NCBI GenBank assembly: GCA_022822365.1 | Contig: JAJEBV010000035.1 | Span: 136,082-200,081, forward strand | Length of the DNA: 64,000 nt | Source: Thermoanaerobaculia bacterium | Lineage (GTDB): Bacteria; Acidobacteriota; Thermoanaerobaculia; Multivoradales; Multivoraceae | Reading direction: 5' to 3' | Part shown: piece by piece, positions 37,156-44,096 of the stretch | Layout: every line of letters starts with the position of its first letter | Numbering within the stretch: position 1 is the stretch's first letter | Notes under the pieces: model-generated | Database searches by the model: none | Told to the model about the DNA's origin: nothing | The model's input: only the letters and a program-made list of their open reading frames with translations | Program-made: the position numbers and the translations under genes

Positions 37156-37434
37156 ATGTCCATCGTGCGCGCCGCCGAGGTCGTCGTGCTGCTCTGCACC
37201 GTGTACATCGCCTGCGGGCTGGTCTTCGCGCCGCTCTTCGCCTGGCGCGGCGCCAGACGCATCGATCCCGCCGCGAAGACGGCCGGGCTCGGGTTCCGCC
37301 TGATCATCCTCCCCGGCGCCGTCGCTCTGTGGCCCGTGCTGCTTCGCCGGTGGCTCTCCGGCCGCCTGCCGCCGGTAGAGCGCAACGCGCACCGTAACGC
37401 GGCCGAACACCGCGACGAGCGGGGTTCCACATGA
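37156..37434 (+). CDS. Small membrane protein, first gene of a seven-gene operon
   Basis: 92 residues from ATG 37156 (MSIVRAAEVVVLLCTVYIAC). Two hydrophobic segments are visible: VVVLLCTVYIACGLVFAPLFAW and GLGFRLIILPGAVALWPVLLRRW. A polar His/Arg-rich tail follows. No named family is recognised. The last codons overlap the next ATG by 4 nt. Position ahead of a ferric-reductase/Rieske gene suggests a membrane redox or assembly helper. Confidence 0.65.
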   Translation: MSIVRAAEVVVLLCTVYIACGLVFAPLFAWRGARRIDPAAKTAGLGFRLIILPGAVALWPVLLRRWLSGRLPPVERNAHRNAAEHRDERGST

Positions 37435-37625
37435 CACGCGGCCTGCGCCGCGGCCACCGGCTGATCTGGGCGGTGCTGTTTCCGGTCGCGGCGATACTGC
37501 TGGCGGTGGCGTTGCTCTCAAGGCCCGAGCCACCCTTGATGGACGAGATACCCGCGGAGCGTGCGGGTGCAGCCGAGGCGGTCACCGTTACGGAGGACCC
37601 GCCGTCAGAGGATGAAGGCCCGTGA
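37431..37625 (+). CDS. Small single-pass membrane protein
   Basis: 64 residues with one helix (LIWAVLFPVAAILLAVALL) after a basic N-terminus, then an acidic, proline-rich tail (PLMDEIPAERAG; TVTEDPPSEDEGP). Both ends overlap neighbours by 4 nt, which argues strongly that it is translated as part of the operon. Function unknown; its topology suits an accessory subunit of the following reductase. Confidence 0.6.
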   Translation: MTRGLRRGHRLIWAVLFPVAAILLAVALLSRPEPPLMDEIPAERAGAAEAVTVTEDPPSEDEGP

Positions 37626-38695
37626 GCGCCGAGTACCAGGCGGTCCTCTGGAACCGCAACAAGAAGCTCTACGACCTGACGATCGCGGCCGGCGTCGTCC
37701 TGTTCCTTGGCCTCTTCGTCGGCATCGGGGTCGCGACGCGGCCACAAGCGACGATCGAGACCCTGCTGATTCGAGGGTTCGGCGCTAGCGGCCTGCTGCT
37801 GCTCCATGTCGTGCTCGCCATCGGGCCGCTCTGCCGGCTGGAGCCGCGCTTTCTGCCCCTCCTCTACAACCGCCGCCACCTCGGTGTCTGCACGTTCCTG
37901 CTGGCCCTGGCTCACGGCGGGTTCTCGATCGCCCAGTTCCATGGCCTCGGGGTCCTGAATCCACTGGTCAGCGTGCTGGCCAGCAACGGCAACTACGACA
38001 GCCTGTCCCAGTTCCCGTTCCAGGCGCTCGGCCTCCTGGCGCTGGTCATCCTGTTCCTGCTGGCGGCGACGTCGCACGACTTCTGGCTCGCGAACCTGAC
38101 GGCGCCAGTATGGAAGGCGCTTCACATGCTGGTCTACGTCGCCTACGGCCTGATCCTGGTCCATGTGGCGCTGGGCAGCCTGCAGGCTCCGGAGCGGCCG
38201 TCGGCGCTCGCCGTCCTGCTGGGCCTGGGCTTCGCCGGCATCGCCTCGTTGCACCTCGTGGCCGGCAGGCGCGAGCGCGTCCCGGCGCCGACCGCCGAGG
38301 CGGAGGGCTCCGCGGTCGACGTCTGCGCCGCCTCCGACATTCCCCTGGACCGGGCCCGGATCTTCCTCCTCAGCGGTGAGCGAGTGGCCGTGTTTCGCTA
38401 TCGCTCGGAGGACGGCGGTGAGCGAATCGCGGCCGTCTCCAACGTCTGCCAGCACCAGAACGGTCCGCTCGGCGAAGGCCGGGTCGTCGACGGCTGCATC
38501 ACCTGCCCCTGGCATGGCTACCAGTACCGGCCGGAGGACGGCTGCTCACCGGCGCCGTTCACGGAGACGATTCCGACCTTCAACGTCCGGGTCGAGCGAG
38601 ACCGGGTACTGGTGGATCCGCAACCCAACCCGCCCGGAACCCATGCCGAGCCGGCACGTCTCGGCACCGAAGCCGGCACCGGGGAGCCTTCGTGA
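37622..38695 (+). CDS. Ferric reductase-like membrane domain fused to a Rieske [2Fe-2S] domain
   Basis: 357 residues. Residues ~20-215 form about six helices with His pairs typical of ferric reductase/cytochrome b-type heme ligation (LLLHVVLAIGPLCRLEPRF, FLLALAHGGFSIAQFHG, LHMLVYVAYGLILVHVALG). After a linker, residues ~245-340 are a Rieske domain: CQHQNGPLGEG and CPWHGYQYRPEDG supply the CxH and CxxH cluster ligands. The fusion would pass electrons between membrane heme and a [2Fe-2S] centre. Partners may be the two small membrane proteins upstream and the unknown protein downstream, all with 4-nt overlaps. Confidence 0.85.
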   Translation: MSAEYQAVLWNRNKKLYDLTIAAGVVLFLGLFVGIGVATRPQATIETLLIRGFGASGLLLLHVVLAIGPLCRLEPRFLPLLYNRRHLGVCTFLLALAHGGFSIAQFHGLGVLNPLVSVLASNGNYDSLSQFPFQALGLLALVILFLLAATSHDFWLANLTAPVWKALHMLVYVAYGLILVHVALGSLQAPERPSALAVLLGLGFAGIASLHLVAGRRERVPAPTAEAEGSAVDVCAASDIPLDRARIFLLSGERVAVFRYRSEDGGERIAAVSNVCQHQNGPLGEGRVVDGCITCPWHGYQYRPEDGCSPAPFTETIPTFNVRVERDRVLVDPQPNPPGTHAEPARLGTEAGTGEPS

Positions 38696-39597
38696 CCGAG
38701 GAGCGCCAAGGCGATTTCTACGTCGGCTACGTCGACGAGACGCCGCCCGGCGTCTCGCGTTTCGCACGCCGCCTCGTGATCGGCCTCGTGCTGCTGGCCG
38801 CGGTTCTCGGCGCCGCCCTGGCGCTGCTGCTGGAACGGTTCGACGAGGGCGTGTTCGAGTACGGCACGGTACGGGACTACGAAGGCGAACTGCTCGTCGA
38901 TCCCCATCCCCGACTGCTGACGGCGGACGGACCGGCCGAGGGCTATCTGCTGGTTGGAGTCGGCAAGCAGGGACTCGACGTGGACAAAGAGCCCAGCCCG
39001 CCCTGGACACCCTCGCCATCCAGGAAGACCGGGGTTTCGGGCACGCTGATCCGGAACCCGGAAGCGGCGATGCTCGAAGTGCATTCCCTCGAGCTTCCCG
39101 AAGGAGCCGCCGAAGCTGGACCCGCCGTCGAGCCGACCTCCCCGGCCGCTCCGGCGGCCAACGGCTCGCCCCTCGACAGCGAGAGCGTCGGCCCGGAGTC
39201 CGAGGCGGCAACCATCGTCACTCGCGTACGCGGGCAGACCCTGGTGGGCGAGATCGTCGACACGAAGTGCTATCTCGGCGCCATGAAGCCGGGCCGCGGC
39301 AAACCCCACCGGGACTGCGCCTCGCTCTGCATCCGGGGCGGCATTCCGGCCGCGCTCCTCGTGCGGACGGAAGGCGGAGAGCGGCACCTCGTCCATCTGC
39401 TGAACCCGCGGGGCCAGCCGTTGGGGCGCGAGCTCCTCGAGTGGGTGGGCGAACCGGTCGAAGTCTGGGGAACCCTCAGGCGGCGCGACAACCGTCTGTT
39501 CCTGCGGACGATCACGATCAGACCGACACGCGCCCCGGCCCCATCCGTCGTCGTCCCCGCGGCGAGCGAAGCCGGGACTGCAACAGCCGATGACTGA
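38692..39597 (+). CDS. Membrane-anchored protein of unknown function
   Basis: 301 residues. One N-terminal helix (LVIGLVLLAAVLGAALALLL) anchors a periplasmic domain. It begins with a strand-rich piece (EYGTVRDYEGELLVDPHPRL), has a low-complexity middle (about 125-180, Pro/Ala/Glu) and a conserved-looking C-terminal part, LVGEIVDTKCYLGAMKPG followed by HRDCASLCIRGGIPAALLV. The Cys spacing there could bind a metal or form disulfides. It overlaps the Rieske gene by 4 nt and the next gene by 8 nt. The KCYLGAMKPG...HRDCASLC pattern recurs in proteins linked to membrane redox genes, but I know no function. Confidence 0.65.
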   Translation: MTEERQGDFYVGYVDETPPGVSRFARRLVIGLVLLAAVLGAALALLLERFDEGVFEYGTVRDYEGELLVDPHPRLLTADGPAEGYLLVGVGKQGLDVDKEPSPPWTPSPSRKTGVSGTLIRNPEAAMLEVHSLELPEGAAEAGPAVEPTSPAAPAANGSPLDSESVGPESEAATIVTRVRGQTLVGEIVDTKCYLGAMKPGRGKPHRDCASLCIRGGIPAALLVRTEGGERHLVHLLNPRGQPLGRELLEWVGEPVEVWGTLRRRDNRLFLRTITIRPTRAPAPSVVVPAASEAGTATADD

Positions 39598-40432
39598 ACC
39601 GGTACGCAGCAACGTCTCGACGACCGCTTCGAGCGTCGGCGCCGTTCCCAGCCCAGAACACCTGCCCGACGGCCAGATCGAAGCCGGCACCTACCGCCTG
39701 CGCTTCGCCCGCACCGAAGAGGACATCGACCGGCTGCTGACGCTGCGTTTCGAAGTCTTCAACCTGGAGTTGGGCGAGGGTCTCGACGAGTCGTACGACA
39801 GCGGCCGCGACACGGACGACTTCGACGCGAACTGCCACCACATGCTGGTCGAGCAGAGGGACGGCACGATGATCGGCACCTACCGGATGCAGACGGCCGC
39901 CATGGCGGCCCGCGGCAACGGTTTCTACTCGGCCATCGAGTACGACCTGGGGGCCCTGCCCGGCAGCGTCCTCGAGCAGTCGGTCGAGATCGGCCGCGCC
40001 TGCATTCACCGCAGGCACCGGAAACGGACCGTGTTGTTCCTGCTCTGGCAGGGGCTGGCCCGCTACATGGTGCACAACCGGCTCCGCTACCTGTTCGGCT
40101 GCTGCTCCCTGACCAGCCAGGACCAGGCCGCCGGCATCCGGCTCTACCGGCAGCTCGTCGCGGCGGGAAAGGTCCGGCAGGACCTGGACGTGCCGGTCCT
40201 TGAGCACGCCCGCTGCGAGGCGCCGCCCGAGGTGGTCGAGAAGCGTCCGGATGTCGAGATACCGACCCTGTTCGCGACCTATCTGCGCTATGGCGCCCTC
40301 GTCTGCAGCCGGCCGGCCATCGACCGCGACTTCAAGACGATCGACTACCTGGTCCTGATGGACACGGCCACCCTCAGCCGGCGCATCCGGCTGATCTTCG
40401 GACTCGACCAGGCGCCGGCCGTCGACACCTGA
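39590..40432 (+). CDS. OlsB-like N-acyltransferase (GNAT-type)
   Basis: 280 residues. After a variable N-terminus the domain reads YRLRFARTEEDIDRLLTLRF, EVFNLELGEGLDESYDSGRD, DFDANCHHMLV, IGTYRMQ, VEIGRACIHRRHRK and LLWQGLARYMVHNRLRYLF. This is the pattern of the ornithine/amino-acid N-acyltransferase family (OlsB), which puts a 3-hydroxyacyl chain on an amino acid. The next gene is a PlsC-type O-acyltransferase (OlsA-like), and the OlsB-OlsA pair makes ornithine-type aminolipids. The acceptor amino acid is not certain. The last residues are not conserved. Confidence 0.78.
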   Translation: MTEPVRSNVSTTASSVGAVPSPEHLPDGQIEAGTYRLRFARTEEDIDRLLTLRFEVFNLELGEGLDESYDSGRDTDDFDANCHHMLVEQRDGTMIGTYRMQTAAMAARGNGFYSAIEYDLGALPGSVLEQSVEIGRACIHRRHRKRTVLFLLWQGLARYMVHNRLRYLFGCCSLTSQDQAAGIRLYRQLVAAGKVRQDLDVPVLEHARCEAPPEVVEKRPDVEIPTLFATYLRYGALVCSRPAIDRDFKTIDYLVLMDTATLSRRIRLIFGLDQAPAVDT

Positions 40433-40437
40433 GGGGA

Positions 40438-41253
40438 ATGCGCCTCCTGCGCGTCTGCCGGCTGGCCTGGCGGGGTCCGGCGTTCCTCCTGCTCACGCTG
40501 GCCGCGTGGCTGCCGCTGTATGTCCTGAAGCCATTTCTCGTACGCCGCCGCTATCCGACCTGGCGAAAGGTCCGCTCCGGCATCATGCGCCGCTGGGGCC
40601 GCGCCTGCCTGGCCGTGCTCGGCTGCCGGGTCACGGACCGTGGCGCGCCGCCGGCGCCGCCCTGCCTGCTGGTCTCGAACCACATCTCCTACATCGACAT
40701 CCTGGTGCTCGCCGCGCACTCGCCCGCCCGCTTCGTCTCCAAGGCCGAGATCGCGGACTGGCCCCTGGCCGGCACCGTCTGCCGGACGGTCGACGTCATC
40801 TTCGTCGACCGCGGCCGGCGCCGCGACGTGACCCGCGTCGGCGAACAGATCGCCGAAGCCCTGGAGGCCGGCGACCCGGTCATCCTCTTCCCCGAAGGCA
40901 CGTCGACCCCGGGCGACGCCGTGGCCACCCTCAAACCCTCCCTGCTGGCGCCCGCCGCCGTCCAGGAGCTGCCGGTCCACTGGTCCGTTCTGCGCTACGA
41001 GACACCGGATGACGAGGATCCCGCCTTCCTGAGCGTCGCCTGGTGGGGCGAGATGCCGATGACGCCGCACGCGCCCGAGCTGCTCAAGCTCCGCCGCATC
41101 GAGTGCGAACTCGAGTTCGGAGCGGAACCCTTCCGGGCCGCCGACCGCAAGGAGCTCGCGAGCCTGCTGCGGCGGCGGATGACGGCGGCCTTCCGGCCCA
41201 TGGTCTCGAGCGCGGAGGCAGCCGCCTCGACCGGCGACCGCCGGTTCCCATGA
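40438..41253 (+). CDS. Lysophospholipid acyltransferase family protein (PlsC/OlsA-like)
   Basis: 271 residues with one or two N-terminal helices (AFLLLTLAAWLPLYVLKPFL). The acyltransferase motif I is SNHISYIDIL (NHx4D type, catalytic His and Asp) and motif III is LFPEGTSTPGD. SKAEIADWPLAGTVCRTVDVIFVDRG lies between them. It would add the second acyl chain to a lyso-lipid at the inner membrane. It follows the OlsB-like gene by 5 nt and overlaps the fusion gene by 4 nt, so aminolipid synthesis by the pair is the simplest reading. Confidence 0.85.
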   Translation: MRLLRVCRLAWRGPAFLLLTLAAWLPLYVLKPFLVRRRYPTWRKVRSGIMRRWGRACLAVLGCRVTDRGAPPAPPCLLVSNHISYIDILVLAAHSPARFVSKAEIADWPLAGTVCRTVDVIFVDRGRRRDVTRVGEQIAEALEAGDPVILFPEGTSTPGDAVATLKPSLLAPAAVQELPVHWSVLRYETPDDEDPAFLSVAWWGEMPMTPHAPELLKLRRIECELEFGAEPFRAADRKELASLLRRRMTAAFRPMVSSAEAAASTGDRRFP

Positions 41254-44096
41254 CGAAGTCCAATCGGCGTTTGCCCTGGCTCCGGATCGCGGTTGGCGCC
41301 TACGGTGCGCTGCTTCTTTCTTCGACCGTCGTGCGGTTGGCCGGAGACGAACAGCAACTGCCGCCGGAAGCTGGAAAGACGGTGGAGATCGCCGTGCCGA
41401 GCGGCGAAGGCACTCTGCGAATCGCTTGGAACGAGACGTACTCGCCGGTCGATGAGGGCCTACCCCTGGTGCTCCTGCACGGATCGCCCGGCGACGCGGA
41501 CAACTTCGGGCGGCTTACGACACGGCTACGCATCTACACGACTCTGACGAGGGCGTCGAACCTGTTCTCACCTCTACGGCAGGTGCAGGAGGCAGACCTG
41601 GTGCCCAACGCCGACGTGCCTGTGTTCCGCTCTTGTGTTCGGGAAGACCCACCGCTCCAGTCCCTCCTGGAGCGCGGACGGGTAGAGGGCCGTGTGGATT
41701 CCGACTCGCCCGACACGGACGACAGTCCGCGTGCCGACGCTACCCGACCCGACTTCCTTTCCGAACCCGCGGTCGTCCTGTCCGGCCTCTGCCGGCGAAC
41801 CATCGCGCCCGACTTGCCCGGCTTCGGCGCCTCCCAGCATCGCGTCGCGGACTACAGCGCCCGCGGTCACGCCGACTCGACGCTCAAGCTGCTCGATCGG
41901 CTGGCCGTCGACCGGTTCCACGTCCTCGGTTTCAGCATGGGGGGCGCGGTCGCGCTGCATCTTGCAGACCAGGCGCCCGACCGGGTCGCCTCCCTCATCC
42001 TGATGTCGTCTGTCGGCGTCCAGGAGCTCGAACTCCTCGGCGACTACCGGGTCAACCACGGTCTCCACGGTCTCCAGCTCGGACTGTTCTGGGGACTCCG
42101 TAACCTGCTACCGCACTTCGGCGCTTTCGATCAACCGGTCGCCCACTCCTACGCCCGCAACTTCTACGACACGGACCAGCGACCGCTACGAGGCATCCTG
42201 GAGTCCCTCGAAGCGCCGGTCTTCATCATCCACGGCGAGCAGGATCCACTGGTCCCGGCCGCCGCGGCGCTGGAACACCACCGCGTCGTGCCGCACAGCG
42301 AGCTGTGGATGCGGCCGGACAGCCACTTCTTCCTGTTCCGCGGCGGCGACGACCTGATGGATCGGATCGAGGAGTTCCTGGGCCGCGTCGAGGCGGGCGA
42401 GGCGGCCACGCGCGCCGATGCCGAACCGGAACGGCTAAAGCGAGCGGCGCTGCCGTTCGACGACATGGACCTGCCCCCGTTCACCGGGCCCGCCCTGCTG
42501 ATCGTCTTCCTGCTCCTCGTGTTCGCCGCGTACGCCAGCGAGGATCTGACCTGCATCACCGCAGGGCTGTTGGTGGCCCAGGGCCGGCTCGATTTTCCGG
42601 TCGCCGTCGCCGCCTGCTACGTCGGCATCCTGAGCAGCGACCTCGGCATCGCCTGGCTGGCGCGCGTCCTGGGCCGGCCGGCTCTCAGACTGCCGCCGTT
42701 CAAGTGGTGGGTCACTGAGGCCGCGATCGAAGAGGCCTCGGCCTGGCTGCGGCGGCGAGCCCTGGTCGTCGTCCTGGTCAGCCGCTTCCTTCCCGGAACG
42801 CGGCTGCCGACCTGCCTTGCCGCCGGCATCCTGCGCACCAGTCTGCTCCGGTTCTGCTTCTACTTCGCGCTGGCCGTGGCGATCTGGACACCCGCCTTCG
42901 TCGGCGTCAACGCGCTACTGGGACGCGAGGCGGTCGAGCGCTTCGGCGGCCGGCTGCCGGGGGGACTGCTTGGCGCGGCGCTGGCGCTGGCCGTCGTCAT
43001 CTTCACGGTGCGGAGCGTCGCCGTTCCGCTCTTCACCTGGCGCGGGCGCCGCCTCTGGCGCGGCCGCCTCCTGCGCGTCCGGCACTGGGAGTTCTGGCCC
43101 ATGTGGGCGTTCTACCCGCCGCTCGCGCTCTACATCCTCTGGCAGGGCCTGCGGCGCGGCCGCCTGACGGCGTTCACCGCGATCAACCCCGCCATGCCCC
43201 TCGGCGGCCTGCTCGGAGAGTCGAAGAGCGACATCCTGGACGGGCTCGCCGGCATCGGCGACGCGCTGCCGACCTGGATGCGGCTGCCGCCGGGAAGCCC
43301 GGAAGGGCGAATCGCGGCTCTGCGCTGCTTCCTGGAAGAAGAGAAGCTGGACTATCCGGTCGTGCTCAAGCCGGACACCGGCGAGCGCGGTCGCGGCGTC
43401 GCCGTAGCGCGTTCCGAGGCCGACGCGGCGACGTTCTTGGAGCGGACCCCGGGGCCGGCGCTCGCGCAGGAGTACGTCGCGGGCGAGGAGTACGGCGTGT
43501 TCTGGGCCCGCCACCCGGGCCGCCGCGACGGGCACGTCTTCTCGATCACCCACAAGGTCCGGCCCACGGTAACCGGCGACGGAACCAGCACCCTGGAGCG
43601 GCTGATCCTCGACGACGCACGCGCGGTCGCCATCGCGCACATCTACGCGCGCGAACACCCCGAAGCCGCAAAGCACGTACCCGAGGCCGGCGAAGTCGTC
43701 GAACTGACCGAGGTCGGCGCGCACTCCCGCGGAACGATCTTCCTGGACGCGAACGAGCTACACACGCCCGAACTCGAACGCGTGATGAACGCGATCTGCA
43801 TCGCCTACGACGGGTTCGACTTCGGTCGCTTCGACGTGCGCGTCCCAAACGCCGAGGCGCTGCAACGAGGCGAGGGAATCCGCGTGCTGGAAGTCAACGG
43901 CGTGACCTCCGAAGCGACCCACATGTACGACCGCCGTTACGGGTTCTTCGGTGCCCACACCATCCTGCGCCGGCAGTGGCGGATGGCATTCGACCTCGCC
44001 GCCGAGAGAATTCGAGAGGGCGTCCAGCCGGCGACCATGAGCGAGATCGTCCGCGCCGTTCGGGCTGAACGACGAGCCCGCCGCGGCGCGGCGTAG
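41250..44096 (+). CDS. Three-domain fusion: alpha/beta hydrolase, DedA membrane domain, ATP-grasp ligase
   Basis: 948 residues from ATG 41250. Residues ~45-390 are an alpha/beta hydrolase with oxyanion motif LVLLHGSPGDADNF, nucleophile HVLGFSMGGAVAL, late Asp in IHGEQDPLVP and His in PDSHFFLF. An insertion of about 70 residues follows the first strand-helix unit. Residues ~410-590 are a DedA/SNARE-associated (VTT) domain (YASEDLTCITAGLLVAQGRL; VSRFLPGTRLPTCLAAGI), a family of lipid flippase candidates. Residues ~640-940 are ATP-grasp (YPVVLKPDTGERGRGVAV; AQEYVAGEEYGVFW; RVLEVNGVTSEATHM). All catalytic positions look intact. It is the last gene of the operon, after two lipid acyltransferases, so an activity on membrane lipids is inferred. 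Confidence 0.85.
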   Translation: MTKSNRRLPWLRIAVGAYGALLLSSTVVRLAGDEQQLPPEAGKTVEIAVPSGEGTLRIAWNETYSPVDEGLPLVLLHGSPGDADNFGRLTTRLRIYTTLTRASNLFSPLRQVQEADLVPNADVPVFRSCVREDPPLQSLLERGRVEGRVDSDSPDTDDSPRADATRPDFLSEPAVVLSGLCRRTIAPDLPGFGASQHRVADYSARGHADSTLKLLDRLAVDRFHVLGFSMGGAVALHLADQAPDRVASLILMSSVGVQELELLGDYRVNHGLHGLQLGLFWGLRNLLPHFGAFDQPVAHSYARNFYDTDQRPLRGILESLEAPVFIIHGEQDPLVPAAAALEHHRVVPHSELWMRPDSHFFLFRGGDDLMDRIEEFLGRVEAGEAATRADAEPERLKRAALPFDDMDLPPFTGPALLIVFLLLVFAAYASEDLTCITAGLLVAQGRLDFPVAVAACYVGILSSDLGIAWLARVLGRPALRLPPFKWWVTEAAIEEASAWLRRRALVVVLVSRFLPGTRLPTCLAAGILRTSLLRFCFYFALAVAIWTPAFVGVNALLGREAVERFGGRLPGGLLGAALALAVVIFTVRSVAVPLFTWRGRRLWRGRLLRVRHWEFWPMWAFYPPLALYILWQGLRRGRLTAFTAINPAMPLGGLLGESKSDILDGLAGIGDALPTWMRLPPGSPEGRIAALRCFLEEEKLDYPVVLKPDTGERGRGVAVARSEADAATFLERTPGPALAQEYVAGEEYGVFWARHPGRRDGHVFSITHKVRPTVTGDGTSTLERLILDDARAVAIAHIYAREHPEAAKHVPEAGEVVELTEVGAHSRGTIFLDANELHTPELERVMNAICIAYDGFDFGRFDVRVPNAEALQRGEGIRVLEVNGVTSEATHMYDRRYGFFGAHTILRRQWRMAFDLAAERIREGVQPATMSEIVRAVRAERRARRGAA

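Follow-up and report, generated by a model that had tools for sequence, protein, structure and literature searches.

Ornithine-type lipids are widespread, and the lipid built by OlsB and OlsA offers a free alpha-carboxylate. ATP-grasp ligases such as cyanophycin synthetase, GshAB, LysX/ArgX, RimK and Ddl extend a carboxyl end, the carboxylate being activated and then joined to an amine. An ornithine-taurine lipid is said to have been reported in 1976; we know of no genes for extended ornithine lipids of this kind, or for moving such lipids across membranes. Cerilipin is an ornithine-taurine lipid (PMC4484230). DedA homologues flip lipids, and in COG0586 flipping has been tied to acidic residues and two arginines; fusions of COG0586 proteins to rhodanese and PAP2 are also named (PMC10127716).

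The window studied here, a stretch of 64,000 nucleotides from a Thermoanaerobaculia bacterium, holds an operon in which a single protein joins an alpha/beta hydrolase, a DedA domain and an ATP-grasp ligase directly behind OlsB-like and OlsA-like genes. In the literature searched, which included few subscription journals or bioRxiv preprints, no paper named both ornithine lipids and DedA, and no relevant paper was found on DedA with ATP-grasp or on NRDE with DinB and ATP-grasp. This agrees with an earlier note on this DNA, which had considered the three-part layout undescribed.

The operon and its three-part fusion protein

The features of the operon are as follows (positions in the window):

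37156..37434, + strand: SMTM, a small one-helix protein that opens the cassette (conserved in 35 sequences; start codon chosen by homology)
37622..38695, + strand: FRieske, a fusion of a ferric-reductase-type membrane domain and a Rieske domain (Pfam Ferric_reduct 8e-13, Rieske 3e-15)
38692..39597, + strand: conserved membrane protein that belongs to no named family (motif from 41 sequences)
39590..40432, + strand: OlsB-like N-acyltransferase (NF052554 9e-39, Acetyltransf_5 1e-27)
40438..41253, + strand: OlsA-like (PlsC family) O-acyltransferase (NF052552 1e-37, PF01553 7e-21)
41250..44096, + strand: three-part fusion protein, 948 aa (single open frame; homologues)
41274..41342, + strand: N-terminal membrane helix of the fusion, residues 9-31 (high-pLDDT helix)
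41376..42392, + strand: alpha/beta hydrolase domain, residues 43-381, with Ser229, Asp332 and His359 (Pfam, model, homologue alignment)
41568-41780, + strand: disordered insert in the hydrolase domain, residues ~107-177 (predicted structure, relatives compared)
42462..43034, + strand: DedA/VTT domain, residues 405-595, with Glu431, Asp432, Arg512 and Arg518 (Pfam, NCBIfam, model, alignment)
43038..43244, + strand: linker, a membrane-embedded or interfacial helix followed by a conserved NP...GG..GESK loop (alignment, model)
43245..44024, + strand: ATP-grasp ligase domain, residues 666-925 (NCBIfam, fold comparison, model)

The genes are tightly packed, with overlaps of 4 nt between FRieske and the 38692 gene and of 8 nt between the latter and the OlsB-like gene. 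OlsB-like and PlsC-like genes indeed precede the fusion, as claimed earlier; the 4-nt overlap, which had been placed between these two, is the ATGA shared by the OlsA-like stop and the fusion start codon, and the acyltransferase genes are 5 nt apart. Of the partner genes, the two acyltransferases had been recognised. The operon is longer than had been stated, since in the window it also includes FRieske and the 38692 gene; the DinB and NRDE/TANGO2 partners found in relatives had been missed as well. A promoter scan of the operon gave nothing above chance. The OlsB-like protein scores below the curated cut-offs (134 of 350 bits for NF052554, 127 of 320 for NF052555) and is a homologue, not a certified OlsB; the OlsA-like protein likewise falls below that of NF052552 (129 of 300 bits) and passes that of PF01553. 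As both are well under the curated ornithine cut-offs, the amino acid of the lipid may differ. SMTM, which ends in ERNAHR-AA, is conserved upstream of the Rieske gene across phyla. The 38692 gene, with the motif GEIVD-KC-LG-MKPG-K-HR-CA--CirGGiPp, had no Pfam or NCBIfam match, and one relative was likewise without a Pfam match; it accompanies FRieske in 11/11 context-checked loci that carry it.

Translation of 41250-44096 gave one uninterrupted frame of 948 codons, and Pfam and model-based domains bore out the single hydrolase/DedA/ATP-grasp protein proposed before. From the N-terminus, a membrane helix is followed by the alpha/beta hydrolase, DedA (VTT), a membrane-embedded linker and the ATP-grasp ligase; AlphaFold models had a mean pLDDT of 86.5 for the whole fusion and 93.5 for linker and ligase. 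A missed stop between the domains, which the earlier note had named as a finding that would overturn its claim, or an assembly error could be ruled out, as the frame is open and free of stops in many genomes, both of the same genus and more distant. In one genome (G033) the fusion is split, most likely by a contig break, since both halves lie at contig ends. Averaged over the family, the net charge is about +3 before the N-terminal helix and -1 after it, a pattern which an N-in, hydrolase-out topology would fit.

The hydrolase domain matches Abhydrolase_1 (PF00561) with 82.6 bits against a cut-off of 25.8 (4e-23), including the Ser-Asp-His triad. The triad, earlier described as intact in the window protein, is kept by nearly all of 60 full-length homologues (Ser229 in 56, Asp332 in 60, His359 in 59). 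The domain resembles esterases, among them the membrane phospholipase A (6i8w) and ABHD6; its disordered insert is peculiar to the window's genus. Several family members (L113, L117 and also L031 to L033) lack the hydrolase, and it is therefore not essential to the core.

The DedA domain passes the VTT (PF09335) cut-off with 45.9 against 33.9 bits (1e-11), and Glu431, Asp432, Arg512 and Arg518 are each present in 60/60 full-length homologues, the helix-1 spacing differing from that of Glu39/Asp51 in YghB (PMC10127716). The DedA sequence had no match in the PDB. In the linker, for which Pfam and NCBIfam hold no matching model, Asn646, Pro647, Gly653, Glu657 and Lys659 are kept in 60/60, and the GESK loop is possibly the seat of a lipid head group. 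ATP-grasp profiles match the C-terminal part below the Pfam cut-offs (cyanophycin synthetase model 8e-9). A focused structure model, however, gave an ATP-grasp fold for this part (VIA Z 17.2 to cyanophycin synthetase), nearest to cyanophycin synthetase, GshAB, LysX/ArgX, RimK and Ddl. The Lys/Glu/Asn positions reported as intact are so throughout the family, Lys707, Glu747, Lys769, Asp862, Glu881 and Asn883 each being kept in 60/60 homologues. Fold and conserved Lys, Glu, Asp and Asn residues place the domain among the ATP-grasp proteins, and ligase activity is predicted from the model.

Distribution, gene order and co-occurrence with OlsB

The nearest named relatives of the window's genome are MAGs of Acidobacteriota (Thermoanaerobaculia), some of them filed as Holophagales. 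A pattern search of public genomes gave 527 matches, of which 492 encoded relatives. The best 80 of these 492 were used; they represent Acidobacteriota, Planctomycetota, Gemmatimonadota, Verrucomicrobiota, Bacteroidota, Balneolota, Rhodothermota, Calditrichota, Krumholzibacteriota and Thermodesulfobacteriota; cultured hosts of the family include Paracoccus denitrificans, Fodinibius and Vibrio. Sixty distinct loci, drawn from at least nine phyla, were compared, and in 56 of them all three parts lie in one frame. Of the other four, L059 is cut by a contig end, L068 has the hydrolase in another frame, and L113 and L117 are without it. The family tree is mostly clustered by phylum with weak deep support, and we therefore make no claim for either transfer or vertical descent.

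Most often the genes run SMTM, FRieske, 38692 gene, OlsB, OlsA, DinB, NRDE and fusion, with parts missing by lineage. In 44 distinct loci the sequence reached far enough upstream; OlsB was found in 38 of these, OlsA in 36, DinB in 31, NRDE in 14, and FRieske with the 38692 gene in 11; FRieske is kept beside OlsB in many loci. The architecture search proposed earlier thus showed the layout recurring across phyla, usually with OlsB/OlsA before it. In many loci one or both of two further genes lie between OlsA and the fusion, for example:

L023:11215-11742, - strand: DinB-fold gene
L065:312-1055, + strand: NRDE/TANGO2 gene, with a predicted Ntn-hydrolase fold

OlsF-like genes take the place of OlsB/OlsA in Vibrio, in Photobacterium and in one bacterium of the Desulfobacterales. 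They score 428, 407 and 393 bits, respectively, against OlsF (NF052615), under its cut-off of 620 and with nearly the whole model covered. Vibrio THAF191d and Photobacterium GJ3 carry DedA, ligase, DinB, NRDE and DoxX-like genes followed by the OlsF-like gene, which in the Desulfobacterales locus is divergent to the fusion. The Vibrio version of the operon also contains a gene for a YHS-domain (seleno)protein (L124:8319-8795).

When domains are fused in one lineage and encoded by neighbouring genes in another, this is classically taken to indicate that they work together. Paracoccus denitrificans PD1222 has adjoining separate ligase (PDEN_RS24485), hydrolase (PDEN_RS25810) and VTT (PDEN_RS24475) genes, Salinivibrio has VTT, ligase, DinB and NRDE as separate neighbours, Azospirillum has a VTT-ligase fusion without hydrolase, and in Variovorax the ligase gene adjoins OlsB. 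The earlier note would have given up its proposal had the parts occurred as separate genes in unrelated contexts. Mostly the opposite was found: separate genes often stand in related contexts, with some single ligase genes of Alphaproteobacteria elsewhere. OlsB was not near the copies of Azospirillum, Paracoccus and the Komagataeibacter plasmids. On the latter (L121, L126), a stand-alone ligase lies among metal-resistance genes and near arsenic-resistance genes, with a methyltransferase and, in L126, also an iron-containing redox enzyme on the opposite strand.

Across 297 genomes of Acidobacteriota, a strong OlsB match occurred in 34/40 with the ligase and in 18/257 without it (Fisher 2e-25), and 30 of 34 placed pairs lay within 6 kb. 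In Planctomycetota (199 genomes) the counts were 16/21 and 13/178 (Fisher 6e-12), with 13 pairs within 6 kb. The Fisher values ignore shared descent, a problem lessened by the count by genus in Acidobacteriota, where OlsB was present in 18/23 genera with the ligase and 6/143 without (Fisher 7e-15). At the thresholds used, 6/40 ligase-bearing genomes of Acidobacteriota and 5/21 of Planctomycetota had no OlsB match. Gene order and co-occurrence ruled out a chance neighbourhood of the fusion and the aminolipid genes.

Proposed role and alternative explanations

The protein family is real, widespread, tied to ornithine-type lipid genes and undescribed in the literature searched; the genetic tie of the fusion to the aminolipid genes is strong. 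Our main reading, to which we assign a probability of about 0.4, is that the fusion processes and moves an ornithine-type aminolipid made by the two preceding genes. In the inner leaflet, OlsB and OlsA would first make an amino acid lipid with an N-acyl and an O-acyl chain. The ATP-grasp domain, which would lie in the cytoplasm and be tethered to the membrane by the linker, would then phosphorylate the free alpha-carboxylate of this lipid and join an amine to it, either an amino acid or, as in cerilipin, taurine. Once extended, the lipid would be flipped by the DedA domain, and in the outer leaflet the membrane-anchored hydrolase, on the periplasmic side, would cut or transfer the ester-linked chain; the optional DinB, NRDE/TANGO2 and Rieske cassette may add further modification steps. 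We infer the order of these steps, the nature of the amine and what becomes of the ester. The aminolipid machine proposed in the earlier note accordingly holds as regards making and handling the lipid, by the conserved order in many phyla, the OlsB/OlsF co-occurrence and the neighbouring split genes; the ligase, DedA and hydrolase steps stay putative.

The alternative that survives best, though we consider it unlikely, is turnover instead of export: the fusion and its partners would remodel or recycle aminolipids, the hydrolase removing the ester chain and NRDE the amide chain, DedA returning the lipid to the inner leaflet and the ligase re-using a product. Two candidate hydrolases in one operon, the esterase- and phospholipase-like hydrolase fold, the conserved Cys directly behind the initiator Met of NRDE and the mention of both TANGO2 and Ntn hydrolase in one paper (PMC7612213) speak for it. 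However, so tight an operon of ligase and lipid synthase genes points to synthesis, NRDE was found neither in the window's genome nor in its genus, and a single query, a weak negative, found no DinB relative in the window's genome.

It is improbable that a fatty acid is activated by the ATP-grasp domain, which would then form an N-acyl amide on its own and so feed or bypass OlsB. An aminolipid review cites acyl histidines of Legionella next to ATP-grasp enzymes; it also gives acyl-ACP as the donor in ornithine-lipid synthesis (PMC11631085); moreover, OlsB stays in the operon and the nearest folds are those of peptide ligases. Still less probable is a role of DedA in recycling undecaprenyl phosphate, with the ligase modifying a cell-wall precursor and the aminolipid genes as mere neighbours. 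The ligase fold is D-Ala-D-Ala ligase-like, both arginines are kept, and the best curated DedA match is UptA (NF052604), although its 52.5 bits fall short of the cut-off of 250 and do not place the domain in that family; against this stand the adjacency to and co-occurrence with OlsB/OlsF in independent arrangements and a first re-entrant motif (SED) shorter than in characterised UptA-type proteins. Equally doubtful is a redox or heme stress cassette (Rieske, ferric reductase, TANGO2, DoxX-like) served by the lipid genes, for which the 11/44 loci with FRieske and the 38692 gene and heme trafficking by a bacterial TANGO2 homologue (PMC10470608) may be adduced, but the redox parts are optional where OlsB/OlsA are near-constant, and the operon NRDE (L065) matches PF05742 weakly, with 46 bits against about 200 in many other homologues.

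Taking processing and export of an aminolipid as the preferred reading, we propose, more tentatively, a widespread, so far undescribed pathway in which head-group-extended (peptidyl- or taurine-type) aminolipids are made and carried over the inner membrane by a dedicated DedA flippase. If true, a DedA protein would have an aminolipid substrate, broadening the cargo of this family, and ligase, flippase and editing esterase would form one polypeptide. The family is a candidate for both the extended ornithine-type lipids and their membrane transport in many phyla. For the DinB and NRDE/TANGO2 genes, whose role is difficult to assign from other evidence, the operon provides a link to lipid metabolism.

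Comparison with described systems

With ornithine-lipid synthesis by OlsB/OlsA or OlsF the operon has the upstream genes in common, as homologues that keep the known order or with an OlsF-like gene in their place, and to these it adds the ligase-flippase-hydrolase protein. The hydrolase has the fold and catalytic triad of 6i8w and ABHD6, and 6i8w is likewise a membrane enzyme, but here it is joined to DedA and a ligase. The ligase domain has the fold (Z 13-17) and the invariant Lys, Glu, Asp and Asn positions of cyanophycin synthetase, LysX/ArgX, RimK and Ddl at an identity of about 20% or less, whereas their usual N-terminal domain is replaced by the membrane linker with the GESK loop. Finally, the VTT domain resembles the COG0586/UptA undecaprenyl-phosphate flippases in having conserved acidic residues, spaced otherwise than in YghB, and two arginines in the second re-entrant helix, and differs from them in its shortened first motif, its low UptA score and its fusion to hydrolase and ligase.
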